Origin: Torymus aiolomorphi
Lineage: Eukaryota; Arthropoda; Insecta; Hymenoptera; Torymidae
Assembly (NCBI GenBank): GCA_036365515.1
Contig: CM070876.1
Location: 122,530,810 to 122,594,809, forward strand
Length of the DNA: 64,000 nt
Reading direction: 5' to 3'
The notes beneath the pieces were generated by a model. The model had not been told where the DNA came from, did no database searches, and saw nothing but the letters and a program-made list of their open reading frames with translations. Every line of letters starts with the position of its first letter. The first letter of the stretch is position 1. Of the stretch, positions 12,145 to 61,866 are shown one piece after another. The position numbers and the translations under genes are program-made.

Positions 12145-13450
12145 AATCTTTTCTGTTTATATATTGGTAAATATGGTCTGCATTATCAAATACGTATTGG
12201 ATATAAGAATTATTATATAGCAGAGTTTGAGGGTGCAACAAAACAGACGATTCAAATAACTGGCATTCTTCATACGAGGCGCTGAAACCCAGAGTGTTCA
12301 ATATTTGTATGAGTTCCTTCGATCCATATTTTTTTGAAAGCATTGCTGCTAGTCCAATTTGCAAAGACGATAAAAATGATCTCGGCCGAGCAGCTGCTAT
12401 AATAGTATGCGCAATACTATTAATTTTAGTAATATATTTATCAGCCGTACGCTTATCTTTCAAAATAATTTCTTTTAGTAACTCTTGTAAAGTTTCTGGA
12501 ATAACAGTTGAAACATCTGAAGGAAAGTTATCTGGAGACGAATAAGAGTTACAATCGTACACTTTTCCACGAATATCTTCCAAAATAATTTTTCCAGCAC
12601 TTTGGATAATTCGTTTGCGCTCTGCTGTTTCATCCTTACATTTATTTTTGTACCAATTGTCAGTTAAAATTTTATATCCAATGTTGAGAAATATGATTAT
12701 CGGCCCGTATTTGGAAGTGTGAATAATAATGTCTGTTCCAAAAATATCAATTAAATAATTTTTTAAATATTTTGTGTTGGACCATTCGACACTTTCAAAA
12801 TTCTGCAATATTTCTCGTACACTAAACTGGCATTCTTCTTTATTTTCCGTTATATAATTTGCAATAAATTTTGCGGCTTTATAGGTATTAGTGTCTTCAT
12901 TTCTACTCTCTTTTCTAAATTTATTATATAATAATTTATAGCAGCTTTGATGGTATCGAGCGCCTACAGCTACCAAATCCTCAACTTTTATTATTCGATT
13001 ATACACTTCTAAGCATTCTCTGTCATCGACTTCTTGTAATTTGTTGAGTAAAGTAGCCCTGCTGCCAGTTTTAGATACAAAATAAACCACTTGTCGAATA
13101 TTTGCAGCTAGTTTTTTTTGTTTTTCTATAAAATCATCGCTAGCATCTTTTCCACAAATATAACAAAATTTTGCAAAGTTAAAATCGGCGCCTGTAGAAG
13201 CACGTGTAGAAATACCTGGCAATGATTTTAATTTATTCTCTGCTGCTTGTATATTCTTTTCCCATGTATAAGATTTCGCACAATTAGCATGAACATTAAT
13301 GGAACTGAATTTCCGAAATTGCAAATGTTTTTTGTCTTGTCTCCTTATGCTTGATGCGACGCAACTTCGAATACTTTCTTCTTTCAATGTACGAATAGCA
13401 CCGATATTTAGCGACTTTTCACAAATCATACAATCCACTTGATCAATCAT
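12128..13450 (-). CDS. Zinc-finger-type transposon protein, probably truncated (440 aa)
   Basis: This is the only long open frame of the long-TIR element, so it is the best candidate for its transposition protein or a remnant of it. Visible features are an N-terminal Cys pair (CMIC near residue 8), a second pair (CYIC near residue 95) and the later motif RYHQSCYKLL, together suggesting Zn-binding modules. Helical sequence follows, with the C-terminal motif YVFDNADH. I see no DDE-type catalytic triad. From memory, similar proteins in other invertebrates continue well beyond the VFDNAD motif, so the stop at 12128, just inside the left TIR, probably truncates it. The frame is otherwise uninterrupted. 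Transposase identity is inferred from position, not from a recognised domain. Confidence 0.6.
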   Translation of the reverse strand: MIDQVDCMICEKSLNIGAIRTLKEESIRSCVASSIRRQDKKHLQFRKFSSINVHANCAKSYTWEKNIQAAENKLKSLPGISTRASTGADFNFAKFCYICGKDASDDFIEKQKKLAANIRQVVYFVSKTGSRATLLNKLQEVDDRECLEVYNRIIKVEDLVAVGARYHQSCYKLLYNKFRKESRNEDTNTYKAAKFIANYITENKEECQFSVREILQNFESVEWSNTKYLKNYLIDIFGTDIIIHTSKYGPIIIFLNIGYKILTDNWYKNKCKDETAERKRIIQSAGKIILEDIRGKVYDCNSYSSPDNFPSDVSTVIPETLQELLKEIILKDKRTADKYITKINSIAHTIIAAARPRSFLSSLQIGLAAMLSKKYGSKELIQILNTLGFSASYEECQLFESSVLLHPQTLLYNNSYIQYVFDNADHIYQYINRKDYIFYK

Positions 13451-14120
13451 TACATTAGAATAGAAGCTGCAAAATAATATGTGCTATATAGTATTTAGCA
13501 GCGACTTTATAATTTATTGAAATGATATTATTGATATAGGAATGTTCTCTAAAATTTTTAGTATTTCAATCATAGGAACAGAATACTTACATGAATATAT
13601 ATATATATATATATTCTCTCCAATTTTATATATAAGTATGCGAAAATACACTCTGAAAACTAACTTTTAACTGGTAAACTATGACCCCAAATGATTGCTA
13701 CTAAGAACGCTTCCAGACTAACCGACTGAAAGACGTTACAGACTGCTCTACACAACCTATACTATTATAAAGGACGGTTTTCATAAGTGTTGCAGGATGC
13801 CGTTCATTCCAAGAATGACAGCATCTCTGATTGGTTCGTCTCACCCGACTGGCCATGTAGCCGTGTAAGCGAAACATATACTAAGATTTCAAACAGGGGG
13901 GTGGGGGGTTACAAAGTGCGTTGACCTTCGTACCTTTCGTGTCAATACAAACGGTTACCTACCTGGAGTACAATAGACCGCTTTTACCTGCCGATCCACT
14001 AATACAGTTCGTTTACCTGAACTGAAGTTATTCAGTTTCTATAGATGTTAACATAACAATATATTTACATACAATGAAAAAATATACTGTTTAATTTAAA
14101 TATATTTATAATAAAAATAA

Positions 14121-16134: not shown

Positions 16135-17536
16135 TTAAGGGACGTCAGCTTGTAGGCGGAGGGGGCAAAGCTTCACAATCGGTCGAGTGGTCTGACCCTT
16201 GGCCGTACGGAGCGTAGCCACTCTCACGTGGCCGTCTGTGCCGCGGTGAACCTCTATGACTCGACCCATCGGCCATCTAGCTGGCGGTGACAGGTCATCG
16301 ATGATGAACACTAGTTTGCCCTTTTGAGGTCCACTCGCCTAACTTCCCACTTGTTGCGTGCTTGCAAGTGATGCAGGTACTCGCGCTTTCACCTGTGCCA
16401 AAAATCGTTTCGTATTTTAGAAATTAGCTTCCATGTGGAAAGCGGGGTAGTGGAGTCCGGTAGGAACCCAGGTTCTGGCAGAGTGGTGAGGAGACGGCTG
16501 GTTACAAAATGACCAGGAGTTAGAGGGGATAGGTCATTCGGATCGTTGGAGATTCTTGTCAGTGGGCGTGAATGGAGACACGCTTCGACGTCGCAAAGCA
16601 ACGTTGTCATCTCCTCGAACGACAGATGTTGGTCGCCTATCACTCTCCTCAGGTGGAATTTCGTAGACTTCACTCCGGCCTCCCACATATCTCCGAAGTG
16701 CGGTGAGTATGGTGGAATGAACGACCAATCAGTTCATTGATTGGCGAGGACTTCAGCGGTCTCGCTATAAAATTCAGACGCAGCCTTGAACATCCTGCGT
16801 AATTCCTTGTCCGCTCCTCTAAAGGTCGTTCCATTGTCACTCATCAGTTTGGTACATCTCCCTCGTCGGCTGCTGAAGCGTCTGAAAGCAGCGATAAATG
16901 CTGAAGACGTTAAGTCTGTAACGGCTTCTAAGTGTATGGCTTTTGTAGCCAGACATACAAACAAACAGATATAGCCTTTATAGGCCTTAAAACCTCGGCC
17001 ACGCTTAGTGCGCAGCATGATGGGTCCGGCGAAATCCACGCCGGCATTGTTGAATAGTAGACATGGCCTTACTCGTTCGCTTGGCAAGGGGGCCATGAGC
17101 TGTGTACTTCCGCGGCAGCTGAATCGGGTACACATTGGAGGATAATTTTTCGGACCAGGGCGTTGGCATGGATGATCCAAAATTGTTGTAGGATCGCATT
17201 TCGGGTCACTTGTGGTCCACCGTGCAGCGTGCGTGCGTGAGGCTCTCTTACGAGCAGCGTTGAAAGATGGCTCTCTTTGGCGAGGATGAGTGGGTGTTGC
17301 TGTTCGTGATTGAGATTGGAAGCTTGGAGGCGTCCTCCAACCCGCAGCAGGCCCTCTTCGTCTAGATACGGGTTCATGCGTAGTAGCGCCGATAACTTTG
17401 ACAACGGTTTTTGATGCTGCAGCGCTCGGATTTCATCTGGAAAGCGAATAGATTGCGCCAGGCGCACCAGGCGCAACAGAACTTGGTCCAGCTCAGCCGC
17501 TCGCAGGAAACCCATTTGATGGTTCTTCCTGTCCAA
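16135..17536 (-). pseudogene. BEL/Pao integrase (zinc-binding, core, C-terminal DUF5641-like)
   Basis: On the minus strand from 17536 down: a zinc-binding region (LLRVGGRLQAS, then HPLILAKESHLS), the integrase core with NNAGVDFAGP (first Asp) and LMSDNGTTFRGADKEL (second Asp), then CDVEACLHSRPLTRIS and LTPGHF of the Pao-type C-terminal half. A C-terminal region ends near 16135 with RWPMGRVIEVH and KLCPLRLQADVP, typical of the DUF5641-like tail of BEL integrases. This enzyme joins retrotransposon cDNA to host DNA. Reading needs frame changes near 17070-17180 and 16690-16734, and the part near 16345 is disturbed, so the gene is dead. Confidence 0.85.
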
Positions 17537-17721
17537 GAACCTAAAAATATACGCAACTACTCAAATTAATTTTGAGAGACACGAGAACTTGGCCATCAAT
17601 TCCTCGGCAGGGGCAGCCCGTCCAATCTTCGGGGCTCGTCTGAGGCGTTGACCAAGAGACACAATGATGACGGTTCCTGTTTGGTTCTTAATTTGGGTCA
17701 TTGTTGCTGATCCAAACTCAG

Positions 17722-27990: not shown

Positions 27991-28460
27991 ACTCCCATAA
28001 ATTGTCGCCACCTAATACACGTTTTTTCATTTTTTAATTTTTTTTCTCAAAAACTAACCAACAGAATGGATTCAATTTTATACAGATTATAGCTATTCAT
28101 AATCTCCATTATCATGATTTTTCTCAAAGAAATTGACCATTTAGTTTGGGAGTTATAAGCATTTAAAAAGAAAACACGTTTTTTTTAATAACAAAATAAC
28201 CGTGATAGCTAGAGAATTTTTTCTTTTTTAATATAGGTTTTTTTATGCTCTTTCGAACGCTACACATCCGATTATAAAATTTAAATCCAATCATTAAAAA
28301 AATCAAAAACAAATTTTTCGAAAATGAAAAATTCGACATAAAACAAAAACTAATTAGTTAGTCGTACAAAATTATTTTTTTCCCGAATTCGGAATCAAAA
28401 AACAAAAAAAATAAGACCCGTCCGGTTGAAATCGACCGCATATATCCGAAAATAAAGCGG

Positions 28461-28725
<265 letters not shown>

Positions 28726-28948
28726 ATACATCCATACAGATATTTTCTAAAATCATGTGACACAAACTTTTAACACCTTTATTCATGTTTCTAGAGCAAT
28801 TTAAAGAAAATTAAAATTTTACTATTACAAAGCTTCCTCTATGAGGAAGCAAAAGATATGAAAAGACTTTTACTTGAATGAGTAAATTATTAATCATTAA
28901 TAAATAATGTACATTGGAATTATCTTTATTTAACATATACTATGAGTA

Positions 28949-31239: not shown

Positions 31240-33377
31240 TTATATATTTTTAATATTTTTTAGTTTCCTAGATTTTGTCGCAATCGAATTTTTAGCCGCA
31301 GTCTTCCTACTATTGTTATGTTCCCTAGTTTTTGCATAAATTGTTACTAAGACAAGGAATTCGAGCATTTTCATTCGATGCTCGTAGCAGTCATTCTCTT
31401 GATCAAACCAATCAGGGAAGTGTTTGCAAGTGTACGCTTCTATATTCTCAATTAACTTAGCTGAAAGATGATTCTCATGCCAAAATTTAGAATGAATTTT
31501 GTCAAATGCTTCTAGCTGACAATTAACAATTCTCGCAAATCTTTCTGTTGGTCTGATCAAGAACGTTACTGGTTGAAAATCTGGATCAGAATGAGGGTAC
31601 TCTCTAAAGTTAATATAGGTTTCATTACTAGTCACTGGTTCTGATGCAGCTTTCTTTAGATCTTTTTCGCATGCCAGACAATGACTTTTTCTGAGAGATT
31701 TACGAGCTACGTAACCAGAAAAGTAAGTAATGGTATTTTGTTCATAAGAGAATTTAGAGTCTATGCCTGACATGTTAGAAGATGTTAATTCTAAATGCAA
31801 ATCCAAAAAATCAGCAGCATGTGTAATTTCTTGAAGTTCATTCATTTCCTCTAAATTATATTCAGGAGGTGCAACTGATTCTGTTTTATCCTTTTCAACA
31901 ACCTCATTCCGAGGGCGTAGCAATGACTCTCTTCACAATTTGTGTCAGCTTTTTTACTCGTATGAATAAAATCGGTAGACGAAATAAGTCTAAGAGTTAA
32001 ACGATACATTCTACTGGTTGGATTAGGATTGAATCCACCTCTGCCACGTAATTTAGCATGAGTATATTCCACAGAATCTTGATTACACAAACCTGTTGCC
32101 AATTCAAAATCAGGGAATGAAGATTTTACTTCCAAGTACAGGCTTACTAAAGCACGAGCGGTCAGAGGTAACCCTAAGAAACACGGTGGTTTACTAAAGC
32201 CAGTTTTTGTTTTTACAACCCATTTCTCTAACCACTCGATAAAACTTTCAAGTCGCTGTTGAATCTCTGGATTTCTCTCTGCCAATGGACGCTTTAATTC
32301 GTGGCGATTTTTCAAACTATATACATTACATGCATCGATTACAGCATCCATTGTTCTGAGAAAATTTGCTGACGATTTCCATGTGTTTGAAGACAACCCT
32401 GATTGAACATCTTGGTCAACTAATTCAATTGTAGATGTCAAACGACGGCTTAAGAGTTGAAAAGCAAGCTTTACCTTCATGGCTTCAAAACTATTAGGGT
32501 TAAAATGATTATCTAATAAAAAGCCTAATACATTTGAAGTACCATAAGATTTGTCAAGCTCCCATGTTTGTTTTAAATCACTGGAAGATATAATTTTTTC
32601 ATCACAAATATAAATACAATCATGGGATCTTAGCTCTGCTATTAATCTCTTAATAAGGTGTGGCCAATCAAAAATCGCAAAAATCTTTACTGAATCTACT
32701 GCGAAAAAAGGTTTCTCTGAAGATATTTCAAGTAATTTAAACAATTTTTGATTGTTAGTACCTTGATCACATACTATGGCTCGAACATCTGCACCTACTT
32801 TTCGAAGGTTTGTTACAATTTGGGGAACGATATCTAGGAGCTCTTGTGCACTTGCACCATTTTCGTTCAATCCGAATGCTACTATTTGACGCCATGGATT
32901 ATTAGCATTAATGCTATCAATGCAAAATAGCAACGCGTGTTTTGCAACTTTACAGTCTCTGAGATCCTTTCCCATATCAACAAACCCTTCGATTACATCA
33001 TATTTTTTTGAATACTCTTCGGCCGCTCTAATCGACATTTCATCAAATTTCAACGTACATAATCTTTCCGATGGTGGAAGGGCCATCATATACTCTCCTA
33101 TCATTTTGTAAATTTTTTCTTTATTGAATCCTGGAACTACGTGACATTCTGATACCCAGGATCTAACCGATGATTCAGAAGGCGAAATTAATCCTCCATC
33201 CCTTAAACGAGAATAACAAGCTGCCGAATAATAATACATTTGTTTTGCCAAATTTTTCTCATCGATTGTGTAAGACTTATTAGGTGTGTGCAGTTGAAGT
33301 TTGATCATAGTTTTAGCCATATCAGGGATATCTTTGTCTTTTAATAAATCGTCAATATCGGAAAATTTCTTTGTCAC
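31240..33377 (-). pseudogene. P-element / THAP9-type transposase body, frameshifted
   Basis: The first segment (33377-31851) carries the THAP9/P-transposase landmarks LCTLKFDEMSIRAAEEY with GFVDMGKDL, the GTP-binding-like middle region, and LRGRGGFNPNPTSRMYRLTLRL near its end. A one-base frame change near 31900 leads into 31923-31240, with FSGYVARKSLRKSHCLAC and a C-terminal domain. The family cuts and pastes P elements in the nucleus. This body is mostly open but disabled by the frame change, by a stop and frame change upstream (33377-33506) and by lesions in the 5' exons. The domain calls rest on recognised motif order; an alignment to THAP9 would settle them. Confidence 0.85.
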
Positions 33378-33505
33378 ATTTTATTGTAAACGTTTAGCTA
33401 AACGATTGCTTTTATTTTTTTCATTTTAATCACCCTTTGCAATTGTTTAACCTTTGTTTCTGCATCTAATAATTTACTGTTCACCTTATAAATAAGGATT
33501 TTACT

Positions 33506-38195: not shown

Positions 38196-38587
38196 CGATC
38201 ACATACATTGATTTAACTCGTACAACTTTTGTATTTAACATTTTTCTTTAAAACGCTTCCCTGGTGAGTTATTCAGCGGTCTCGGTATTTTCTGAACACT
38301 CTGTATACTCATAGTATATGTTAAATAAAAATAATTCCAATGTACATTATTTATTAATGATTAATAATTTGCTGATTCAAGTAAAAGTCTTTTCATATCT
38401 TTTTTAATTATAATCATGAAAGTATGTTGTAGACAAAGTTTCTTACAAATACATCAATTTTTTAATTATATAAATACATTTATATTAATGTAATGAATTT
38501 CCAATGATAATATTCCTAATATTTTAGATGCTGTTAAAGCTAACAACAATAAAAAAATAATTTTATATTTTATAATAATATATACTG
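38196..38587. repeat. P element right TIR, inner part
   Basis: Reverse complement of 25482-25668 plus 28853-29050. Ends at the kinase-bearing transposon; the TIR resumes at 43915. Confidence 0.85.
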
Positions 38588-39069
38588 TACGGAAGCCCGG
38601 TCACGACATCTGCATTCAAGCAAGTTAGTTCGCGAGATGATCTGCGAGATGTCGAGTTGGCAAGTTATCGAGTTAGTTAGTTCGCGAGTTGCGCTTTTGC
38701 CTATAAAAATCAACGCAATAAATCTTGTTTGTTACGTGATACTACAATAAAGCGTGTATGTTACTTGACGAGTTGTGGTAACCGGTGCATATTAAGTATT
38801 ACAATTTGAACTTGAAGAAATTTTACACTACGCATGTATTGTGGCACGTCAGAGTCACACAGGTAATAACTAAAAGAAAAAGAGAAGTACACACAGCTAA
38901 TACCTAAAAGAAAAAGAGAAGAAAAAGAAAAAATTTGACCCTCTTTCCATGGTGTTATGTTGATTGAAGGTGGTAGAAGGAATGTGAAATCAAATAGTAC
39001 TGAAACGGTTTGTAAATTAAAGATATTAAATTTAATACGTTTCATTATGAAAACAGAGTTCATGATAAG
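38588..39069. repeat. Left TIR of the kinase-bearing transposon
   Basis: Mirror of 43438-43914. It is rich in 9-13-bp subrepeats around GTTAGTTCGCGAG and AAGAAAAAGAGAAG; indels of about 50 bp separate the two arms. The coding genes start just inside both TIRs, so the TIRs probably hold the promoters. Confidence 0.85.
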
Positions 39070-39116
39070 GAAACTCAAATTTATTTACAACTGAAATAAT
39101 TTTATTTTTATTGCAG

Positions 39117-40268
39117 ATGTCGAGAGAAGAAATTATAATAGATTATTTTCAACAAGGTTATTCTTACAGCGAGATAAGAGAGATTTTAAAAGAAAGAGGT
39201 TATGATGTATCATACAGACATCTGCAAAGAATAATAAAATCATTGAATTTGAGAAGAAAATATATTCAAGAGAATATTCCTGAAATTATTGCAGCGATTA
39301 TTAATGAATTGGGAGGCAGTGGAATTTGCCTTGGATACAAGTCATTGTGGTTAAGACTGAAATTGAAGTATGGACTAGATGTTTATAGAAGTACCGTATT
39401 AGAATTATTGCACATGTTAGATCCTGATGGAATTGAAGAGCGATTTAAATATCGTCTTAAAAGAAGAGTGTATAAAGTAGCTGGGCCTAACTTCTTGTGG
39501 CATATAGATGGTCACGATAAACTGAAGCCTTTTGGCTTTCCCATTCACGGGTGTATTGATGGATACTCCAGAAAAATCATATGGCTGCAAGTGAGTACCA
39601 CAAACAATAAGCCAGAAGTTATTTGTTATTTTTATTTAATGGCAGTAAAAAAATTAAAAATTATACCTACACTGATACGGTCTGATCTTGGAACAGAGAA
39701 CAGTGTTGTAGAAAATGTTCAACAAGTTCTTAGGTATAACCATAGAGATGAATTAGCTGGTCTCAACAGTTTTGTAAAAGGAAAGAGTACAGCTAATCAA
39801 AGGATAGAAAGTTTTTGGGGAAGACAAAAACGCCTTAGCATAAACTTCTGGATTTTATTTTTTAAAGACATGGTAGATTGTGGTCACTTTGATAAAGCAA
39901 ACTCTATGCAACTAGAATGCTTGAGATTTTGTTTCGGACCCCTGATTCAGTACGATTTAGATTTGATGAGGAAGGAATGGAATCGTCATCCTGTAAGAAA
40001 TCAGAAAAGTACATCTATAATATCTGGTAAACCAAATTATTTATATTACATGCCAGAACAGAGTGGAGCACAAAATCATGGCTTTAAATTTGAGGAAGAT
40101 TCCATTCAAAATGCCTTCAACAATTTCACTGAGAAGTCAATGTATTGCAACCATACGTTTCTTCTTTTAGTCGATGAAATATTGGCAGATGTTCAACTCC
40201 CAAAGAATGTGCAAGAAGCTACTTCGTTATATCATAAAATACTAAGTGAATTAAAAAAATATAATTGA
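39117..40268 (+). CDS. Integrase-like DDE transposase (383 aa)
   Basis: The N-terminus is a helix-turn-helix (EEIIIDYFQQGYSYSEIREI to LQRIIKSLNL, about residues 3-48), which would bind the transposon ends. The rve-type catalytic core follows: WHIDGHDKL with IHGCIDGYSR (first Asp, about residue 125), RSDLGTEN (second Asp, about 190) and ANQRIESFWGRQ (catalytic Glu, about 235). All three catalytic residues are present and the frame is open to 40268. The ATG at 39117 directly follows an acceptor-like TTTTTATTGCAG, suggesting a 5' intron; two codons upstream have no ATG. A polyadenylation signal is at 40372. It resembles IS3/retroviral-type integrases more than Tc1 or hAT enzymes. Function as the element's transposase is inferred from the fold and position. 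Confidence 0.9.
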   Translation: MSREEIIIDYFQQGYSYSEIREILKERGYDVSYRHLQRIIKSLNLRRKYIQENIPEIIAAIINELGGSGICLGYKSLWLRLKLKYGLDVYRSTVLELLHMLDPDGIEERFKYRLKRRVYKVAGPNFLWHIDGHDKLKPFGFPIHGCIDGYSRKIIWLQVSTTNNKPEVICYFYLMAVKKLKIIPTLIRSDLGTENSVVENVQQVLRYNHRDELAGLNSFVKGKSTANQRIESFWGRQKRLSINFWILFFKDMVDCGHFDKANSMQLECLRFCFGPLIQYDLDLMRKEWNRHPVRNQKSTSIISGKPNYLYYMPEQSGAQNHGFKFEEDSIQNAFNNFTEKSMYCNHTFLLLVDEILADVQLPKNVQEATSLYHKILSELKKYN

Positions 40269-40371
40269 TACTTTCAATATAATAAATTTCATCTCTTGTA
40301 AATGAACTTTAAGTTAAAATAATCTATTTTTGTATTGTATTTAAATTTACTATTGTTGTAAATATATATGT

Positions 40372-40377
40372 AATAAA
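40372..40377 (+). terminator. Polyadenylation signal of the transposase gene
   Basis: AATAAA about 100 nt after the stop codon, within TAATAAATAAATAAA. Confidence 0.6.
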
Positions 40378-40673
40378 TAAATAAAAAACATACATTCAGA
40401 ACAAACCTTTATTTGACTATCAAATACAAATAACATTTTAATAGCATACCAACTTGTATCACGCTTATATATATTTCTGTCTTCTTTTATAATTTAATTA
40501 TATATATAAACTTTGAGATCGCATAAAACAAAATATTGTAACTTTTTTTAAACTATTGATTAAGTACATTAAATCTTTACAAAAGTTATGACTTCGTAAT
40601 ACATAACAGTCAGTTTTCTTACAATAACTAAATCTCACAATAACTGCATATATTAAATCAAGTCAGTCAAATA

Positions 40674-43380
40674 TTAATTAACAATATTCAAAGCTACATT
40701 TATTGATTGCATGAAAGCATCGTTCATGACAGCGTATACTTCAGCAATCTGTGGACGATTTTCACTTGCATACGAGAAACAGCGTTCTATTATAGATTGA
40801 TAATAAGTAGGTATTTTTTCTAAATTCGGTACTTCACAATTTTTTAATTTCTTCATTAATTCTTCTTCGCTCTGTACGTCCCATGTTACATCTTCTTTAT
40901 AAATTTCAAGAACTGTGCAACCTAAAGACCATACGTCACTTTTTTCTGTTGCGTCTTTTTTATGTAAGAGAATTTCCGGCGCCATATACATTTTAGTTCC
41001 CGTTATTTTTGAATTGCAAGTACTTTTTAACGCTGTAATCATGATGGAGAATTTGCTCAATCCAAAATCGCAAAGTTTTATAGCACCCGTCTTATTTATA
41101 AGGACATTTTCAGATTTGATATCCTTATGTATGATTGGATTTGGCAGTTCGTGGAGATATTTTATTACACCACTTAGCTGCAAGCACGATGAATCTTTCC
41201 TCATCATATCAAATTCATACTCCTCTTTCAAACTGTCATCAAAAATCAACTCTTGTAAATTTGTGCACTCAAAATATTCCATTATTAAGTATACATGTTT
41301 TTCTTCTTTACAATAAGCCATCATTTGAATAAGATTTGGGTGTTTAATCTGCTTTAATACTGCAATTTCTCTTTCAACTAATTTTTTGTATCGGGGGTAA
41401 ACTTTCATAGTTTTTACAGTAACCTTTGTATTGGAAAACGTTCCTTCGTAAATGATAGCTGTACTTCCAGCACCAATAACTCTTCTCATGACAAATTTAC
41501 ACTTTTTTACTTCACATACTACTGAGCTTTCTAATATACTTGATAAAATCATAATTCTTTTAGAGTGTAAATTTTGTTTATGGTTGCAGGTTATCTGACA
41601 ATGCCATACCATATCTTCATTAGATCTTGAGATTTGGAGCCAAAATGCCATTGACATTCTTTTGTAGATTTCGTTATTACAATACCAGGTAAACACTGGT
41701 AAACACTCTGAAAGGCAAGTTGGAATAACTCCTATTTCTAAATACTCATCGTAGAAACCAACCATTTCATCAATATCATATGCTATTGAATGTGGTGTCT
41801 TTTGTTCCAATGTAGGAAATTCATAATCTCTGTACATGACTCCAGTGGTTACGGGTTTATAGCCCATACTTAAAATATTTCGCCCATTAATAAAAATTTT
41901 ACTAATATCATACCCATAATCTACTGGATCAAATTGATCTTCACCTATTCTATGAAACTCGTCCTCATTTGAAGCCATAAATAAAGTTGCCTTACTCTCG
42001 TGTCGAATCGACTGCTCATCAGTATATTTTGATGATGTTGATACGGCATAAGAAACATCCACTCTTCTTAAACATCTTTCAATGATTTTTAAATCTCTTA
42101 AAGTATCGGGTGGCACTGGTACTGTGAATGAATGGTGCTGAACTTCATCAAAACTTTCAATCGTAGGACAGCTGTCTAATGGTGAAAGAGCAGAAGTATC
42201 TAATAAATCTGAACTGTTTGATTTAGAATTAGTAATATTTGATTCCTTGTATTTGTCAGGCACAGCTACCACTTTGATGCTGGGGTCGTTAGTTATATCT
42301 GCTAAAATTTTTCTTTCTCTAATTAAAACATCTTCATCTTCATTCTCTTGTCCCTTTTCTTGTTCCTTCTCTTCTTCACTCTCTTGTTTCTTCTCTTGCT
42401 CCTTTTCTTCTTCACTCTCTTCTCCCTTTTCTTCGTCATACAATTGGTGCAGTACTTTTTCAGGAAAATTTTTGTTTGGCGTACTGTATAAATAAAAGTT
42501 TACTCGACCATTAATGTTTTTATAATTAATATAATCCCATAAGCCACCTTCAGTGTCATCCGGTAAATTAAAATTTTCAATCATAGATCCATTAAAAAGT
42601 CCTAATCTTACTGTCGAGTTTGCCAATGTAAATTTGGCAACTCGATCATCATCAAATTGTTTGATGCCCATTTGTATGATGTCTTCGATGCTGAAAATCC
42701 TAGTTACATCTAATTCTAGCTCTCGGGAACTTCCATTTGTAAGATTTTTTTTTTTAATGAATTTTCTCTGGCTTTTGTGTTTCCACCCGATATTGATAAA
42801 TTTGACTTTAGGTTCAGATGGAGGCTTTGCTACTTTTCTTAAATCTGAAATCTGGAAACAAATTAGATTAAGAAACATGAGCATAATTAGATGATTTAAT
42901 ATTGTAGAATTCAAATGATTTTCAAATTACCTTAGATTTCTTTTCTGTACCTTGAGATACTTTATTTTTTGAAAAAATTGAAGGTACATCTGTCGAGTCA
43001 TTTTTACCTTCAATTATTTTTCTGTAGAAATGAATTCGATCCAATTTTGATTGATCTGCAACTTTTACATTCTGATTGCTAGGAATTTCTTGACCTGAAA
43101 AAACAATAATCAAAAATAATATGTAAAAAAAAAAAAAAAATTTTTTAACAGCCTTACCTGCAGCCAAACGTACTATATATGTGGAAATATTTGGGTTAAT
43201 TATAATTTGTCCCTCTTTAATTAATAGTCCATGCACTCCTTCATTGTCAGTGTAGACTAAGCCGTTTGCTGAGGGAAAATACTCTTTCAAGCATTGCAAG
43301 CTCAAAGTGTTATTTTCAACTGGAAGAATTAAATTTTCTTCCTTGTAGACCACTCTGATCATTCCGTCTTTCATCTCCAT
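40674..43380 (-). CDS. Protein-kinase gene carried by the transposon (854 aa, 3 exons)
   Basis: Exons on the minus strand are 43380-43158, 43094-42931 and 42851-40674; all junctions are GT-AG (donors GTAAGG and GTAATT) and the phases join cleanly, giving 854 residues without a stop. About residues 570-845 form a eukaryotic protein kinase with every key element: glycine loop GAGSTAIIYEG, Lys in VTVKTMK, Glu in EREIAVL, catalytic HKDIKSENVLI, DFG, MAPE and the SDVWSLGC segment. It looks TKL/Ser-Thr-like and active. The N-terminal 570 residues contain an acidic Glu/Lys repeat (about residue 280) and no domain I recognise. The ATG at 43380 is the first in frame; TIR sequence begins about 55 bp upstream. 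Its role in the transposon is unknown: cargo, or a regulator of transposition, host repair or cell cycle are possibilities. Confidence 0.85.
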
Positions 43381-43437
43381 ATTTAGGTTATGATATGATG
43401 CTACATTTTTGAAAAACAATATTTTATTAAACTTTCC

Positions 43438-43914
43438 ATATCATGAACTCTGTTTTCATAATGAAATGTATTAAATTTAATATCTTTAATTTACAAACCG
43501 TTTCAGTACTATTTGATTTCACATTCCTTCTACCACCTTCAATCGACATACACCATGGAAAGATGTATTAGCTGTGTGTGTACTTGACTCTGACGTGCCA
43601 CAATACATGCGTAGTGTAAAATTTCTTCAAATTCAAATCGTAATACTTAATATGCACCGGTTACCACAACTCGTCAAGTAACATACACGCTTTATTGTAG
43701 TATCACGTAACAAAAAAGATTTATTGCGTTGATTTTTATAGGCAAAATCGCAACTCGTGAACTAACTAACTTGATAACTTGCCAACTCGACATCTCGCAG
43801 ATCATCTCGCGAACTAACGAACTCGCTAACTTGTAAACTCGCCATCTCGCCTGAAATGTCAACAACTTTCTAACTAACTTGCTTGAATGCAGATGTTGTG
43901 ACCGGGCTTCCGTA
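43438..43914. repeat. Right TIR of the kinase-bearing transposon
   Basis: Reverse complement of 38588-39069 with an extra stretch of about 50 bp near 43800-43860 and a missing Lys-codon-like purine tract. Confidence 0.85.
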
Positions 43915-44549
43915 ATACTGTGTGTAAAAAACAATTTATGAAAAGAAAGTTCCGAGATCGGGATTCAAACCCCACCCGAGGCAAAAAGACTGAGCACCAC
44001 CAGCCACGCGCCTTAGCCCCCGCAGCTACCGCTACAATTGGTCACTGATAGCGTCAGATCGTTTATGATGACCTTTACCCCCTTGAGGTTAAGGTTTAGA
44101 TATTTGGTTTAAATATTGTTCATAAAATTGCACATTTTACATTATACAAAAACATGCTTTTATGTTTAGTAAAACATTCGGTCCAACGCCGATTATAAGG
44201 CCTGGCTCTATCAAGCCGCCGTCGGTCAGGCCATTGTTGCGGGCTGTTGCCGCTGTTGGGGAGAAGCGAATAGTAGCGAAAGCCGTCGAACGCGCACAAG
44301 CGAGCACACCGAGAGCCGCAGCAGACGAGCGCGTGTCCGCAGCCGCGCCGCCAGCTTCGTGACGTGCCTCCCGAGCCCTTCTCTTTCTCATCCCGCCTCC
44401 CCGCTCCGCTGTATACACACGTTACTTCACGCGATGACGAAACGTGCGTATGGTTCGGCAGCTTGGCCGCGAGAGGCAGCAGTGTGGCGCGCGCGCAAAG
44501 TCGCCTCGCTTCTCCCCATAAGCGCTGGCAATCTCCCTATTCATCTCTG
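43915..44549. repeat. P element right TIR, outer part
   Basis: Reverse complement of 24845-25482. It includes the mirrored tRNA-like module (43958-44040, minus strand) and the GC-rich terminal 350 bp. Confidence 0.9.
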
Positions 44550-44556
44550 ATGCGGT

Positions 44557-44815
44557 AAGCCCGGATATTTTGGAAGAGAATCCAAGAATGAAAGCCAAGC
44601 GGGACGCAGCAGCGAATCATGGCAAGGGTTAACACGAGGCAGAGGACGCGGAGGAAACGGCCAAGGCAGCTACGGCAGAGGACGCAGAGGCGGCAGAGGT
44701 CAGCGCAGCCAACAAGCCAGCACGAGTCGATAAAGCAGCGAAGGAGCCAACGCATGGGTAGCTACGACGGCACACGCAGCGCAGAGCGACGAAACAAAAA
44801 GGTTATATAATGATG
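44557..44815 (+). pseudogene. Copia Gag C-terminus (second half of zinc knuckle)
   Basis: This resumes the knuckle cut at 24844: after the target duplication the sequence continues as GKPGYFGRE, then Arg/Gly-rich codons (RGRGGN, GRGRRGGRG), a typical basic nucleocapsid tail. The final Cys of the knuckle appears changed to Ser in this frame. Confidence 0.7.
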
Positions 44816-45260
44816 ATTATGTAGTAGAGTGGCTTCTCGACAGCGGGTGTTCAGACCACATTATTAATAATGAAGCATTTTTTGAGAAATGTATTAGTTT
44901 AAAAGAATCGATAAATATTTATGTCGGCGATAATACAGTCATAAAAGCAACAAAGATAGGAACTGTATCTCTTTATTTTGTCACCTTCGGGAAGCAAAAT
45001 AAAGTTAATATTAATAATGTTTATTTTGCTAAGGAAATGAATGCTAATTTAATAAGTGTTGAAAAATTAACGAATAATAAGAATACGGTAATTTTGAAAG
45101 GAAAAGTTGTAAAAGTTATAGATAGTGATAATAAATTAACTGCAATAGCATTTAAATTAAATGATACATATAAGATGAAAAGTAAATTGTCAAGGAATAT
45201 AAATTTCGTAAATAGTGCCGAGAGAAATGATAAACGAGTCAAAAGGAAAGGTGGCACAGA
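44816..45260 (+). pseudogene. Copia aspartic protease
   Basis: The frame contains WLLDSGCSDHI, with the DSG catalytic motif followed by the SDH variant typical of copia proteases, then IYVGDNTVIKATKIGTV and MNANLISVEKL, the conserved end of the domain. It would cut the Gag-Pol polyprotein in the particle. A frame change just before 45261 separates it from the integrase; in a live element they are continuous. Confidence 0.8.
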
Positions 45261-47468
45261 ATGCTAGGGCACGTAAACTTTGTTTATTTGAATACGATAT
45301 GTAAACAACAGTTGCTTAACGGTATTCCGAGTGAACTTGAAACGGAATTTATGAAATGTAAAATTTGTATTGAGAACAAAATGCATAACTTATCGTTCGA
45401 AAATAATAGAAATAAAGCAAAGGAGATTTTAGAAATAGTTCATACGGATGTTTGCGGTCCATTTAAAACTACAGGGTTTAATGGGGAAAAATATTTTGTT
45501 TCTTTTATCGATGATTATAGCAAAATAGCTAGAATTTATTGTATAAAAACTAAAGATGAAGTTCTTGATTGTTTTATTAATTTCATTAATGAAAGTGAAA
45601 ATTTAACGGGAAAGCGAATTAAATTCTTGAGATGTGATAACGGTAAAGAATATTTAAACAATCAGTTTTATAAATACGTTACAGGAAAAGGTATTGTCTT
45701 AAACAATTGTCCAGCATATGTTCATGAATTAAACAGAACAGCCGAATGGTTTAATAGATCAATTATGGATATGGCGCGTTATTTATTAGCCGAAGTAAAA
45801 GTACATAAATGTTATTCGCCAGAAATAGTTTGCGCGGCTGCATATTTAAAAAATAGAACTTTGACAAATATAATTGAAAAGAAAAGACCTTATGAAATCT
45901 TCTTTAATAAAAGACCAAATGTTAAAAATTTAAGGTTATATGGGAGTAAAGTTTTTGTAAGAAATCCAGAACAGAAAAGATTTTCGAAATGGGATAAAAA
46001 ATCTAATATGGGAATTTTATTTGGGTATAGTGAAGTAGGATATAGAGTTCTTTTAGATAGGAAAATAGTAGTCACGGGAGATGTAGATATAGTCGAAGAC
46101 GATGTAAAATGTATCGGTCTAGATCTCGACGAAAACGAGACGGATTATACTCTTCCTTCTACTCCTACCTTCGGGGAAAGTAGAAGAAGTAATAATAATA
46201 GTGACGATAATCCGGATGATAATGTCTTTGAAAGCGCAGATGAGCCTGAAAAACCAAATGATAAAATAAAAGATGGATACAACAAAGATCAGGGGTTGAG
46301 AATTCCACGTAGATCCGAACGTGAAAGAAAAAGTACTGTAAGATATCCGGAACCAGAAACGTATAATATCTTTGTAAATTATAGTAGAGTAGATACTCCT
46401 TGTACATTTGAGGAGGCGATGAATAGCAAAGATAGGAAAAATTGGCAAGAAGCCATGGATCAAGAAATTAACTGTATTAATAAAAATAAAACTTGGTCGT
46501 TAGTTGATAAAAAAGAAAGAAAAAAGGTACTAGATGTGAAATGGGTTTACGCTAAGAAATCAGATAATAGATATAAGGCTAGACTAGTTGTAAGAGGCTT
46601 TCAGCAAACTGATGTAATTGATGACATATACGCTCCAGTAGCTAAGAGTCAAACATTAAAAATACTTCTTTCATACTGCTGTCAAAATAGATTAATAATA
46701 GAGCAAATGGATGTTGAAACTGCATTTCTAAATGGCAAAGCGACTACAGAGGTACATGTTAATCAACCAAAAGGTTATAAAGATGGTACGAAAAGAGTGT
46801 TAAAATTATATAAAGCTTTGTATGGATTAAGAGAAAGCCCCAGAGATTGGTATGAATGCTTTGACGAGTATGTAACAAAAATAGGTTTCAAGAAAAATAA
46901 TGTAGAATTGTGTTTATATGTTCTCGATGAAGGAGACAATATTATTTACCTACTAATCTATGTAGATGATTTGTTAATTTGCGGAAAAGATAAGTTGAAA
47001 ATTCAAAAGATTAAAAAATTATTGTCAGATAGATTTAAAATGAAAGATTTAGGCGAAATAAAAGAATATCTTGGAATTCAAGTAGATTATGATTATAACA
47101 AAAATGAAATGAAATTGTATCAGACAAAATATATAGAAGAACTGTTGGAGAAATATAATATAACAAATAGTAAATTGTATAATACTCCTATGGAGACGAA
47201 CTTAAAGCTTGAGAAGGCTGAAGAATGTAAATCGGATATAAAATACAGAAATTTAATTGGCACAATATTATACATAAGTTCTGGTACGCGACCAGACATA
47301 AGCTTTAGCGTGAATTACTTAAGCAGGTACCAAAATTGTTACAATGAGACGCATTATAAATATGCTCTACGTGTATTAAAATACCTATATCAAACTAAAG
47401 AATTAAAATTGTGTTATAAAAGAAATGAAAACATAAACCTAATGGAATGTTATGTAGATGTAGATTAG
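45261..47468 (+). pseudogene. pol: Copia Pol: integrase and reverse transcriptase
   Basis: Residues 1-55 are the gag-pre-integrase zinc-binding region (LGHVN and CKIC). The integrase core shows HTDVCGPF, RCDNGKEYL and AEWFNRS, giving D, D and E. After an acidic linker comes RT_copia: WSLVDKK, DVKWVYAKK, YKARLVVRGFQQ, MDVETAFLNG, LYGLRESPRDWY and the catalytic YVDDLLICG, ending with GTRPDISFSVNYLSRYQ. The frame is open for 735 residues and then hits TAG at 47466 where the family has Trp (DW, here D-stop), a single-base change. Catalytic residues are otherwise intact; the element is dead through the stop and frameshifts. Confidence 0.9.
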
Positions 47469-49304: not shown

Positions 49305-50780
49305 TTAAGAGAATGGCGTTGCTCTAGTTATTCGAATTCCTAACAACTGAGTTAGTTCCTTAATTAAATTGGAATCAAAATTACGACCCTGATCTGTGTG
49401 AACTTCAAGAGGAACTCCATATCTACATACGATTTCACGAACAAATACTTCAGCAATAGTCTTTGCTCTCATATTAGAGAGAGGAAAAGCTTCTACCCAT
49501 TTAGTAAAATAATCTGTGACAACTAAGAGGTACCTATTTCCTAAAGAAGAAATCGAGAAAGGTCCTAAAATATCCATTTGGATTCTTTCAAAAGGTAATC
49601 CTACATTATAGATTCTCATCTGATTGTGGCCTTTATCTGATGGACCTTTCTTTGCAATACAAATTGAACAAGATCTACACCAATTTTCAACATCTTTTTT
49701 ACAAGAAGCCCAATAAAATCTTTTGCGAATTTTCTGTAATATTTTATTAACACCAAAATGACCACCGGAGGGAGAATCATGGGCTACTTCTAAAACAGTG
49801 TTGATATAATTTCTAGGGACAACTAATTGGAGAACTTTTGTTTTGAAATTAGAAGAAATCCATTCCCTGTATAAGAAAACATCGAGAACAACTAATGAGT
49901 CATATTGAGATAAATATACTTTCATATATTCATCTCCAGAAGAAATATCCTGCAACGACAATTTAATACCCTCATTTTTACTTTTTAAAATAGCTCGAAT
50001 GTTATCATCCTGATGTTGACAATTTCGCCAATCCGATTGAGATATTTCTTCAAAAATAATAATACGTCCTACTAAATTACCAATTTCATATTTTGATTCG
50101 ACATTAAAGCAATATTTACAAGAGGAATCATTACAAGGTCGTCTAGAGAGACCACCTGCGTTGCCATGAGAAGTACCTTTTCGATGTAGAATCTTAAAAT
50201 CATACTGATCTAATTTTCCTATCCATCTAGGTAATTGACCATCTAAGTTTTTGAAAGAAAGAAGCCATGTCAATGCAGAATGATCAGTTCGAATGGAGAA
50301 AGATCTTCCACACAAATAATAGTGAACATTTTGGACTGAATCTACTACTGCTAATAATTCACGGCGAGTAACACAGTAATTTCTCTCAGCTTTAGTCAGA
50401 ACACGGTTGTAATAACCAATGACTTTTTCTATTCCCTCTTGAACCTGTGACAAAACCGCACCTATTCTATGATCAGAAGGATCTGTATCTAAAATGAAAG
50501 GTAAATCTGTACGGGGGAAAGCTAGAATGGGTGAAGTTGATAGAACCTGTTTCAACTTTAAAAATGATTTCTGACACTCATCTGTCCAAATCAATTTAGT
50601 TTTCTTTTCAGTTAATTGATAAAGTGGTTTGACAATAGAAGGAAATCCTTTAATGAAACGTCTATAGTAAGAACATAGACCTGTAAAACTTTTTACCTGT
50701 TTCTTACATGAAGGAATTGGCCAATTAACTATAGCTTCTATTTTTTTAGGATCCGTCTTTTTTTCCTTTCTCTGAGACAA
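49305..50780 (-). pseudogene. pol: Gypsy Pol: RT thumb, RNase H, truncated integrase
   Basis: The frame begins in the RT connection (KKIEAIVNWPIPSCKKQVKSF, then GLCSYYRRFIKGF) and continues through RNase H (FILDTDPSDHRIGAVLSQ, VTRRELLAVV, RTDHSALTWL). The H2C2 zinc finger (HFGVNKILQKIRKRFYW, then CRSCSICIAKKG) and integrase core with MDILGPF and VHTDQGRNFDS follow. It stops at ITRATPFS, before the catalytic Glu and the C-terminal domain; only 130 bp remain to the LTR. The integrase therefore lacks its third catalytic residue. Upstream RT is in another frame. Confidence 0.9.
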
Positions 50781-51374
50781 TGTGTCCTAGGTACTCAACC
50801 TCGAGTTGAAAGAAAATGCATTTTTTTTATTTAGTTTTAAATTGGCATTTCGGATTCTTACAAAAATCGTACGCAAGTTATCCAGCATCCCGTCGAACGA
50901 TTTAGCCATAACCATAACATCATCTAGATATATTAAACAAATATCATTTAAAAGATCTCGGAGTATTTTCTCCATCAATCGTTCGAAAGTGGCTGGAGCA
51001 TTGCATAATCCAAAAGCCATAACGACGAACTGCCACAAACCATTACCAATTGAAAAAGCTGTTTTTTCTCTATCTTCTGGGTGAATCTTAACCTGCCAAT
51101 ATCCGCTTTTAAGATCTAAAGTCGAAAACCAAAAGTTATCAGCTAATTTATCTAGAGTTTGGTCAATTCTAGGTAATGGATATGAATCTTTAATCGTCTT
51201 GTCATTTAATTTTCAGAAATCCACGCAAAATCTCCAGGTGCCATCCTTTTTCCGTTTCAATACTATTGGAGAACACCAAGAACTAGAAGATTCTTCAATA
51301 ACCCCCTGTTTTTGCATGTCATTAATCATCTGATTAATTTCTGCTTGTAAATGAAAAGGAAGAGGACGAACCGG
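50781..51374 (-). pseudogene. Gypsy reverse transcriptase (fingers and palm)
   Basis: The minus strand reads INQMINDMQKQGVIEESSS, then SPIVLKRKKDGTWRFCVDF, then a TGA at about 51213-51215, then DSYPLPRIDQTLDKL, TLDLKSGYWQVKI, KTAFSIGNGLWQFVVMAFGL, NAPATFERLM and the catalytic IYLDDVMV. There is one internal stop, a TAA at 51375-51377 separating it from the protease frame, and a frame change near 50785. Confidence 0.85.
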
Positions 51375-52079
51375 TTACTTGATAGGATGAGGATCACTAA
51401 GTTTAATTCTGTGTTCAACTAGATTACATTTTCCTGAAACATCATCATCTTCAAAAATATCGTGGAAATTAATTAGAAGCTGGGAAAATTTTTCTTTCTG
51501 TGACGAATCTAAATTTTGAGAATTATTTTCGAAGATATCTTTCAATAAATCTGGTAATTCCTCAGTCCACTCCATAATTCTACAACATCTCTGTTCGTCA
51601 GTATTACTGTCAATTGTGTTTGGGGTATTTTGGAAAATTTTATTTATTGATTCTGTAATTCCAGTTTTACTCAAAAAATCACACCCAAGTATACAATCGT
51701 CAGTAATATCTGCAACAAAAACGATCATCTGAACTGAATGTTGGCCTAAATCAATTTGGACAACTGTTTTAAACTTAATAGGAACATCTTCACCAGTAGG
51801 ATATTTCAAGTTTGATTTATCAATGGGAATCCGATGACAGCGTGGCTCAACAAATTTAGAATTTAAAATGGTCACATCTGAACCAGAATCTACTTTCAAA
51901 ATACATGATTTCTTATCCACACTGCCATCAAATTCGAAAGCCTTTAAATTTCGAAGAACCCTACAAACACGAGTGTTCGAACCATCATGTTCAACAGCAT
52001 CGGGATTAGGAATCTGTTTATTGAATGTCAAACTCGCTCCTGAAAGTTTGACCTGACCTAGTTTCCCTGTTCTGGACAT
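51375..52079 (-). pseudogene. Gypsy aspartic protease and pre-RT region
   Basis: The active site ILKVDSGSDVTILNS, the flap region and DCILGCDFLSKTGI identify a retropepsin-type protease that would mature Gag-Pol. It overlaps the end of the gag frame by 22 bp in a different frame, a normal gypsy arrangement. It continues with HRIKLSDPHPIK up to a stop at 51375. Confidence 0.85.
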
Positions 52080-53267
52080 TGAGAGCGTGGGTGTCCTTTC
52101 TTATGACAGCCCCAACACTCAAGATTTTTCAACCATTCTTGATGATAGAATGGCTGATTTTGTTTCTGAACATCTTTACCCCTAATCTGAGCCTTTCGCG
52201 AAAAACTGTGTGTGTTTTGAGAACCTTTGATATTCTGTTGTGAAATTGAGTTTTTATTCTGTTCCTTGATAACTTTTACTTCTAAAGCTCGCGCAAAAGC
52301 AACCTTAAACGAGGTTGTGCGTTCTAATTGAAGAGTTTCCCTAACTCCTATGTGTAAATACCGATAATAAATTGAGAACAAGCTATCTTATCTTGTACCT
52401 TTAATGAACATTCAGGATATGATAATGTTGCTAACTTTTCTACATCAGCTGCTAATGTAGGAAGATCCTCCCCTGGTTTTTGTCGCCTATTTTGGAATAA
52501 AGAGTAGCTATTTGATCCTAAACGTTCACCGAAACGTGCTTCTAATTTTGCTAACAAGGTCTTCAAATCCAAAGTCTCAGTATCCTTGAAGCTAGTCAAA
52601 ACGCTTTTTGCCTTATTATGCAAAGAAGCAGCTAAAGCTATCATCTTTTCTCATCATTCCAATTGTTAGATCTTGCAATTAAATTGAATTGATTCAAATA
52701 CTCGGAGAGAGGAGTGGTACCATCATAGATATCAGGTTTTAGATTATAACCTAACCCTAAATCGACTGGTGTGACTGAATTTTCAATAAGTGATTCTGTG
52801 TTTCTACATGAACTATCATCTAACCTAATTGGTTGTGTATTTCTGTTACTCGTGTAAACCATATTTGTTGTTTGTGTGCTAGAATGTTGGGTTTTACTCA
52901 TCTGGTTTAATTTTTGACGAAACTGAGCAAGTTGTTCTTGGAGAGAGAGTCGCTCTGCTCGCAGTTCATCGATGGTACGTTGACGCTCGATTATTTCAGT
53001 ATCACGTACCCGTAACTCCGTCGCGAGGTGTTTCTCCTGAATGCTGTGATGTTGTAGTCTCGCTTCAAGCTGTTCACGTCGATGATGTTCAGCCTCAAAA
53101 TCAGCTTCCAACTTTTCGAGTCCTTGATGGTAAACATCAATTTGAGTTCTAGCCTCATTAAGTTCCAAGATTGTTTCACGAAGAAGAGTAGGTTGAAGTA
53201 CACCGATCGTTGGTGAGACATCAGCCACCGTCGATAAATCATCGGTCATCACGTCAGCATGAGTCAT
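52058..53267 (-). pseudogene. gag: Gypsy Gag with coiled coil and CCHC knuckle, frameshifted
   Basis: From 53267 the protein has a strong coiled-coil region (ELNEARTQIDVYHQGLEKLE through IDELRAERLSLQEQLAQFRQ, about residues 30-120), then the capsid start KPDIYDGTTPLSEYLNQF. Two frame changes (about 52642 and 52370) lead through capsid helices (LLAKLEARFGERLGS, ADVEKLATLSYP) to CWGCHKKGHPRSQC, a C-x2-C-x4-H-x4-C zinc knuckle close to the C-terminus. It would package element RNA in the cytoplasm. Confidence 0.85.
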
Positions 53268-55030: not shown

Positions 55031-56023
55031 TTATATTTTTTGTAATCTTTTTTTTATATATTTATTAATAAAATTATGTCGGTAATTATTAGTTAGTAAG
55101 AATTTTTTTGATATTTCAAGATTTTCACTGTGAAATTTACCGTCGGACAATTTGATACTGTAATCTACTAATGTGTAGACTATTGCGATTTTTTGAGATA
55201 AAGGGTGCTGTGAATTAAAATTTAAGTAATGACCAGAATGAGTAGGTTTCCTATACCAGTTAGTAATTATTGAATTATTATCTGGAATTATGAGCTTCAA
55301 ATCAGGAAAACTAATTTCATTATTAGTTGTGGTTTCCACTGTAAATTGTAGGTTACTGTCAAAGTTATTAAACACTTCCAAAGTTTCATCGATTAAACAA
55401 ATGGGAATACATATTAGAATGTCATCTACATAGCGTAAGTATAAAGGTACATCAAAACTTAGTTTATTAAGACAATGTTCCTCCAAGCGTCTCATAGCCA
55501 AGTCACACAAGACAGGACTTACAGGACTTCCCATTGCAGATCCGAATGTTTGTTTATAGAATTTGTCATTAAATTGGAAAAAAGTAGAGTCAAGGACTAT
55601 GTTAATACCTTCACAAAACTCTTTACAAGAAAGATTTATTTTATTGCGTAAATATTTCCAATTATCTTCTATTGATTTTATAATAATTTCCTTGCTTGTA
55701 TTAGTAAATAAACTAACCACATCTAAACTAATTAGTATGTATCCTGGAGGTATAACAAATTTATCTATTCTTTCTTTGAGATGAAAACTATTTTTTACAT
55801 ATTAGTTAGTTTTTGGAATGTTATCATTTAAAAATTTTGTCAAGAATTTAGATAAATTATATGTCGGAGAATTAACGGCGGAAACAATAATACGTATAGG
55901 ATGTCCAGTCTTGTGTACTTCAACTAAACCGTAACATTTTGCAAGATTTGTTTTATTAATTTCCGTTGGTTTTACATCAAATTCATAATCTTGAAAAATG
56001 TCTAAATTGTACCAACGCTTCAC
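55031..56023 (-). pseudogene. Penelope reverse transcriptase core
   Basis: The frame reads INKTNLAKCYGLVEVHKTGH, IRIIVSAVNSPTYNLSKFL, then a TAA at 55802, then PPGYILISLDVVSLFTN, FKYKQ-like FNDKFYKQTFGSAMGSPVSP, LYLRYVDDILICI and SFPDLKLI with NWYRKPTHSGHYLNF, the order of Penelope RT motifs. The YVDD catalytic Asp pair is intact. The only lesion in the core is the TAA; the inverted copy at 56812 has AAG there. Confidence 0.9.
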
Positions 56024-60873: not shown

Positions 60874-61866
60874 TTATATTTTTTGTAATCTTTTTTTTAT
60901 ATATTTATTAATAAAATTATGTCGGTAATTATTAGTTAGTAAGAATTTTTTTGATATTTCAAGATTTTCACTGTGAAATTTACCGTCGGACAATTTGATA
61001 CTGTAATCTACTAATGTGTAGACTATTGCGATTTTTTGAGATAAAGGGTGCTGTGAATTAAAATTTAAGTAATGACCAGAATGAGTAGGTTTCCTATACC
61101 AGTTAGTAATTATTGAATTATTATCTGGAATTATGAGCTTCAAATCAGGAAAACTAATTTCATTATTAGTTGTGGTTTCCACTGTAAATTGTAGGTTACT
61201 GTCAAAGTTATTAAACACTTCCAAAGTTTCATCGATTAAACAAATGGGAATACATATTAGAATGTCATCTACATAGCGTAAGTATAAAGGTACATCAAAA
61301 CTTAGTTTATTAAGACAATGTTCCTCCAAGCGTCTCATAGCCAAGTCACACAAGACAGGACTTACAGGACTTCCCATTGCAGATCCGAATGTTTGTTTAT
61401 AGAATTTGTCATTAAATTGGAAAAAAGTAGAGTCAAGGACTATGTTAATACCTTCACAAAACTCTTTACAAGAAAGATTTATTTTATTGCGTAAATATTT
61501 CCAATTATCTTCTATTGATTTTATAATAATTTCCTTGCTTGTATTAGTAAATAAACTAACCACATCTAAACTAATTAGTATGTATCCTGGAGGTATAACA
61601 AATTTATCTATTCTTTCTTTGAGATGAAAACTATTTTTTACATATTAGTTAGTTTTTGGAATGTTATCATTTAAAAATTTTGTCAAGAATTTAGATAAAT
61701 TATATGTCGGAGAATTAACGGCGGAAACAATAATACGTATAGGATGTCCAGTCTTGTGTACTTCAACTAAACCGTAACATTTTGCAAGATTTGTTTTATT
61801 AATTTCCGTTGGTTTTACATCAAATTCATAATCTTGAAAAATGTCTAAATTGTACCAACGCTTCAC
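60874..61866 (-). pseudogene. Penelope reverse transcriptase core, second copy
   Basis: Same protein and same TAA lesion as 55031-56023, so the lesion predates the duplication. Confidence 0.9.

Follow-up and report, generated by a model that had tools for sequence, protein, structure and literature searches.

The 64,000-nucleotide stretch of Torymus aiolomorphi DNA analysed here (contig CM070876.1, hereafter the window) holds at positions 38588-43914 a complete transposable element of the IS3EU type, in which a DDE transposase gene and a protein kinase gene lie between the same terminal inverted repeats (TIRs), and by sequence comparison the kinase seems to be an integral component of the element, not an accidental pick-up. 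The same comparisons show that the transposase-kinase pairing is old and has been retained across families, as have the catalytic residues of the kinase. The reading that we tentatively put forward, giving it somewhat less than an even chance, is that of a fixed two-gene IS3EU transposon whose kinase would self-assemble through an N-terminal domain resembling that of TDP-43, co-assemble with the transposase and set the timing of transposition. As far as is known, phosphorylation of transposases is the work of host kinases; a transposon lineage that has long conserved a kinase of its own would open transposon-driven phosphorylation to direct testing.

The element and its ends

The element comprises the following features (window coordinates; TSD, target-site duplication).

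38582..38587: left TSD, ATACTG
38588..43914: complete IS3EU-type element, 5,327 bp, with TACGG..CCGTA ends
38588..39073, plus strand: left TIR, first letters TACGGAAGCCCGG
39117..40268, plus strand: DDE transposase, 383 amino acids and stop, PF24764 core at about 39468-40013
40674..42851, minus strand: kinase exon 3, whose middle region is conserved and whose C-terminal part is the kinase domain (about 40731-41489)
42852..42930, minus strand: kinase intron 2, GT..AG, both dinucleotides retained in the three long copies
42931..43094, minus strand: kinase exon 2
43095..43157, minus strand: kinase intron 1, phase 1, GT..AG
43158..43380, minus strand: kinase exon 1, predicted TDP-43 N-terminal-domain-like fold
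43433..43914, minus strand: right TIR, last letters CTTCCGTA
43915..43920: right TSD, ATACTG

Aligned over 420 positions, the two TIRs match at 409; the larger indels span 60, 28 and 37 bases. Their alignment scores 693.5, compared with a maximum of 36.5 among 200 shuffles. The start codons of the two genes lie 43 and 52 bases inward from the inner edges of the TIRs, and therefore each TIR probably carries a promoter. The TACGG..CCGTA ends are found in the window copy and in both other long copies described below (in the one on contig C2 a single base immediately internal to the right terminus is altered), and five sister elements have the ends TACGGAAG..CTTCCGTA in common. TSDs of 6 bp flank three of three long copies and seven of seven short ones; in the sister elements they are exact in four cases out of five, the remaining one matching at 5 of 6 bases.

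The established superfamily IS3EU is characterised by TA..TA ends and, in most cases, duplications of 6 bp (PMC10045372); its published description also includes an IS3/IS481-like DDE transposase without the HHCC pattern. On the features that can be tested by sequence the window element fits this superfamily, and by analogy with it would move by cut-and-paste; a difference is that the word “kinase” occurs 0 times in the accessible text of that paper, whereas the window element has one. The initial annotation of this DNA had proposed the ends, length, TIRs of about 480 bp and ATACTG duplication, an open DDE transposase with three catalytic residues and a convergent three-exon kinase gene with canonical motifs, all of which are confirmed here. 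It had also mentioned IS3EU as a possible name for elements of this sort, and the assignment is supported by ends, TSD, transposase type and lack of HHCC.

Pairing of transposase and kinase

A search of the 1.08-Gb assembly (21 contigs) with the left TIR as query, in which copy counts are lower bounds, recovered at least three long and at least seven short copies of the window family. Both genes stand between these TIRs in three of the three long copies and neither is present in the seven short ones. Any two of the long copies are separated by 29-32 substitutions in about 5,320 bases, and each has a 6-bp duplication of its own (ATACTG, CTTTAT and CTAACC). The initial proposal of a kinase that belongs to the element is thus borne out for the copies found, and since the pairing recurs in deeply diverged families, the kinase is not a lone host gene taken up here. 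A single capture of a host kinase at this locus, to which we give a vanishingly small probability, is refuted by the same three long copies and by the many diverged families that carry the kinase.

Searches of the genome with the proteins gave 117 matches for the transposase and 63 for exon 3 of the kinase, merged into 100 and 57 loci, respectively (the kinase search scored 62 of 21,959 candidates). A transposase locus occurs within 10 kb of 46 of the 57 kinase loci, where 0.12 would be expected by chance, and in all 46 cases the kinase is downstream of the transposase, 42 of them convergent, four tandem and none divergent. For the remaining 11, no transposase match falls within that distance; three have a TDP-43-like domain upstream, and these are therefore probably remnants. 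Of the 30 transposase loci that are most complete (L018-L047), a kinase-domain match lies near 25, including L042, L047 and L028; L026 has the middle region only, L044 a weak kinase match (E 0.003), and no kinase match was found at L030, L032 and L039, the flank searched at the first two being just 1.5 kb. The transposases with a kinase neighbour range down to about 40% identity, and the divergence of the two proteins is correlated, with a rho of 0.57 for 13 elements (a value reached in 1 of 2000 permutations) and of 0.49 for the 10 non-redundant ones (0 of 2000).

An informative exception to this correlation is the element at C3:7.48 Mb. It shares 76% identity with the window element in the transposase and only 45% in the kinase domain, whereas compared with the element at C2:59.8 Mb the kinase domain is 65% identical and the transposase 60%. 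Because this element also has the tandem arrangement, its kinase was probably exchanged, a single case together with a near-identical copy that has the same pattern.

Among the three long copies, both frames are open in the window copy alone: the C2 copy has frameshifts in the transposase and kinase genes, and the second copy on contig C4 has an open transposase and a kinase with two stops. The GT..AG splice sites of the kinase are kept in all three (L009, L010 and the window copy), though two have lost frame. The description of both window genes as undamaged holds for their frames, but not for seven kinase and two transposase codons at which the window copy alone carries amino-acid changes. 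Once three codons with indels are set aside, 26 codons are substituted among the long copies, 24 of them nonsynonymously (two being stops) and two synonymously, for an expected synonymous share of 23% (P for two or fewer, 0.04). The short copies, of 909-1,077 bp, are foldback structures that consist largely of TIR sequence, the similarity between their two arms being 94-100%. All of them are flanked by exact 6-bp duplications, and any two differ at 2-7 bases. With near-identical short copies and exact duplications, the family therefore seems to have moved recently, while its coding copies decay, so that the recent or current activity first proposed is supported in part, by the short copies, but not by the other two long copies, which are broken, nor by the codon counts, which show no trace of purifying selection acting once copies have inserted.

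The transposase and kinase genes

The transposase matches PF24764 (E 1.9e-40) and, among NCBIfam models, IS3 (E 1.8e-7) and IS481 (E 1.6e-4), both far under their cut-offs. Its catalytic triad, assigned by reading the conserved motifs, is D131/D190/E231, retained in 12, 13 and 12, respectively, of 13 elements, a set that includes three near-identical pairs; reading the 383-residue sequence by eye, no HHCC pattern was found in residues 1-120. Among 120 listed relatives out of 525 found, 16 are named by organism, and 13 of these come from Nasonia, Diachasma, Cotesia, Aphidius, Trichogramma and Eretmocerus, which are parasitoid wasps. Scans of IMG/VR with the transposase and with P0001, the relative of the kinase introduced below, returned zero relatives.

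The same genome contains five inverted pairs of transposase N-terminal fragments, some 0.3-0.6 kb apart (C1:84558190+/84559332-, C3:215792509+/215793642-, C4:17790+/18923-, C3:189314098+/189315233- and C1:264538606+/264539683-). Nine of their ten halves are free of internal stops, with open frames of 104-273 amino acids. These pairs look like foldback derivatives and could encode a truncated DNA-binding transposase, perhaps acting as a repressor.

The kinase gene, convergent to the transposase, has three exons separated by GT..AG introns and an 854-residue product. The kinase domain of exon 3 matches PF00069 (E 1.4e-48), and all the motifs of eukaryotic-type Ser/Thr kinases are present (VAIK lysine, HRD-type aspartate, DFG and APE), the window copy having HKD for HRD and VTVK for VAIK. 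An hmmscan of exon 3 at E values up to 1 gave no row for the alpha-kinase family PF02816, and a genome search for the latter gave 0 matches, as it did in 14 control genomes. No Pfam match falls in residues 130-258 of the kinase protein. Among 51 listed proteins, P0001 is the only one that matches most of the kinase protein, with 63% identity in the kinase region, 59% in the second domain and 23% in the linker; its alignment sets in within the first residues of exon 3, in agreement with the boundary assigned to that exon. A protein search with the non-kinase parts (7,987 candidates scored) found P0001 again and no other relative.

Over the same 13 elements, the kinase catalytic residues are retained wherever they are covered: K in 11/11, E in 11/11, the HRD-type D in 12/12, N in 12/12, the DFG D in 13/13 and the APE E in 13/13. 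These counts bear on the possibility that the kinase is cargo, persisting through a benefit to the host or by hitch-hiking, with no role in transposition. The broken copies are in keeping with it. We nevertheless regard it as improbable, in view of the retained catalytic residues, the predominantly convergent arrangement and the recurrence of the kinase beside such diverged transposases.

The TDP-43-like N-terminal domain

The product of kinase exon 1 is predicted to take up the same fold as the TDP-43 N-terminal domain; its identity to that domain is about 26%, and it scores 24.1 bits against PF18694, below the gathering score of 27.1. That this resemblance reflects nothing but a common fold of the ubiquitin-like type, one that plays no part in polymerisation, is unlikely in our judgement, though it deserves to be kept in mind.

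A TDP-43-like domain also lies upstream of the transposase, on the same strand, at 7 of the 30 most complete loci, near full length at L036, L045 and L039 and as fragments at L025, L031, L037 and L042. At L036 and L039 a GT..AG join of phase 1, the same phase as that of the kinase join, brings the domain in frame with the transposase, and in L036 the joined product is a stop-free 462 amino acids. Likewise, the Trichogramma kaykai transposase model P0077 begins with a TDP-43-like domain, and the three convergent sister elements that were read through both ends all have the domain, or a fragment of it, in both genes. This sharing of a predicted domain in sister families suggests that transposase and kinase co-assemble. 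A pair of TDP-43-like exons in inverted orientation, 1.6 kb apart, was also observed at C2:83699652+/83701424-, with no kinase match within 6 kb; this might be a short element with the exon located in its TIRs.

Relation to known systems

The closest parallel is found in fungi, where the families of IS3EU elements bearing TET genes all have the TET gene between oppositely oriented transposase and alpha-kinase genes (PMC12730594), so that a kinase partner within the superfamily is already in print. The likeness extends to the TAYGG..CCRTA ends of the rust elements, the 6-bp TSD and the opposite orientations of transposase and kinase, whereas theirs is an alpha-kinase accompanied by TET/JBP and the one described here is a PF00069 kinase with a TDP-43-like N-terminus (PMC12730594). 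Taken together, the two versions hint that kinase partnership recurs in IS3EU with two kinase types. Styx, from Zymoseptoria, shares the IS3EU-type transposase, and its authors infer a two-protein IS3EU ancestor, but it has four open reading frames (ORFs), in which GATA and CCHC motifs and DUF3577 occur; the accessible text names no kinase inside the element, and the kinase linked to a Styx copy is a nearby host gene (PMC10853768). As for TDP-43, its N-terminal domain is reported to form head-to-tail chains and is similar in predicted fold, whereas RNA-binding domains follow it there and a kinase or a transposase follows it here (PMC5830921). Neither the presence in an IS3EU element of an ordinary kinase (PF00069) nor that of a TDP-43-like domain on both transposase and kinase was found in the literature searched, Repbase and most subscription papers being outside the search. 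A polymerising domain of this kind on both proteins, if true, would be a new way to build a transposition complex.

Proposed mechanism and its main alternative

Under the reading of a fixed two-gene transposon with a self-assembling kinase, each gene starts immediately inward of one TIR and is read towards the middle, and the kinase protein would self-assemble through its predicted N-terminal domain. Where the transposase also bears the domain, a mixed kinase-transposase polymer would form at the transposon ends, in which the kinase would phosphorylate itself, the transposase or host factors that are bound, and this phosphorylation would set when transposition proceeds; assembly, substrate and effect are all inferred. 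The window-family transposase is without the domain, and therefore the link between the two proteins would there be made otherwise, or have been lost. A bolder version, which we consider rather unlikely, extends this to an animal IS3EU clade with its own phospho-regulated transposition complex, whose two proteins begin, or once began, with a TDP-43-like polymerising exon next to the TIRs and co-assemble under the gate of the kinase, the exon being swappable and at least one family having exchanged its kinase while keeping the pairing.

Several observations weigh against this interpretation. More than half of the transposase loci (54/100) have no kinase match within 10 kb, many of them being fragments, and the copies, as noted, bear no mark of purifying selection after insertion. 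The shared domain is not seen upstream at 23 of the 30 transposase loci, and four of the seven positives are fragments; upstream searches did not detect it with the window family's own transposase, nor was it found upstream of that of the tandem family. On the structural side, the exon-1 model was built from one sequence, its five models scoring from 46 to 85, and the prediction for exon 3, from a two-sequence alignment, is unusable (predicted local distance difference test, pLDDT, 29.9).

The chief alternative shares the fixed kinase and gives it other targets: host silencing, chromatin, repair or checkpoint proteins, whose phosphorylation would make the cell permissive. The fungal pairing of an alpha-kinase with TET/JBP, proposed to aid escape from silencing (PMC12730594), speaks for this, as does the missing domain in the window-family transposase. 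Nonetheless, it leaves unexplained the presence, in some families, of a TDP-43-like domain ahead of the transposase, and we see it as a serious but doubtful possibility.

The surroundings of the element

The neighbourhood is dense in mobile elements, with ORFs at 44734-47468, 49305-52100, 31240-33380 and 16734-17560, which we take to resemble Copia, Gypsy, a P-element-like transposase and a further retroelement, respectively. An open frame of 451 amino acids with Cys/His motifs in its first half lies on the minus strand at 12128-13483, and a Cys/Val-rich ORF at 28358-28810 is spurious, its source being a long CA/TG-rich microsatellite. Finally, two ORFs of 256 amino acids with the same translation (55031-55801 and 60874-61644, 5,843 bases apart), which we take to resemble a Penelope-like reverse transcriptase, reflect either a recent duplication or repeated insertion.

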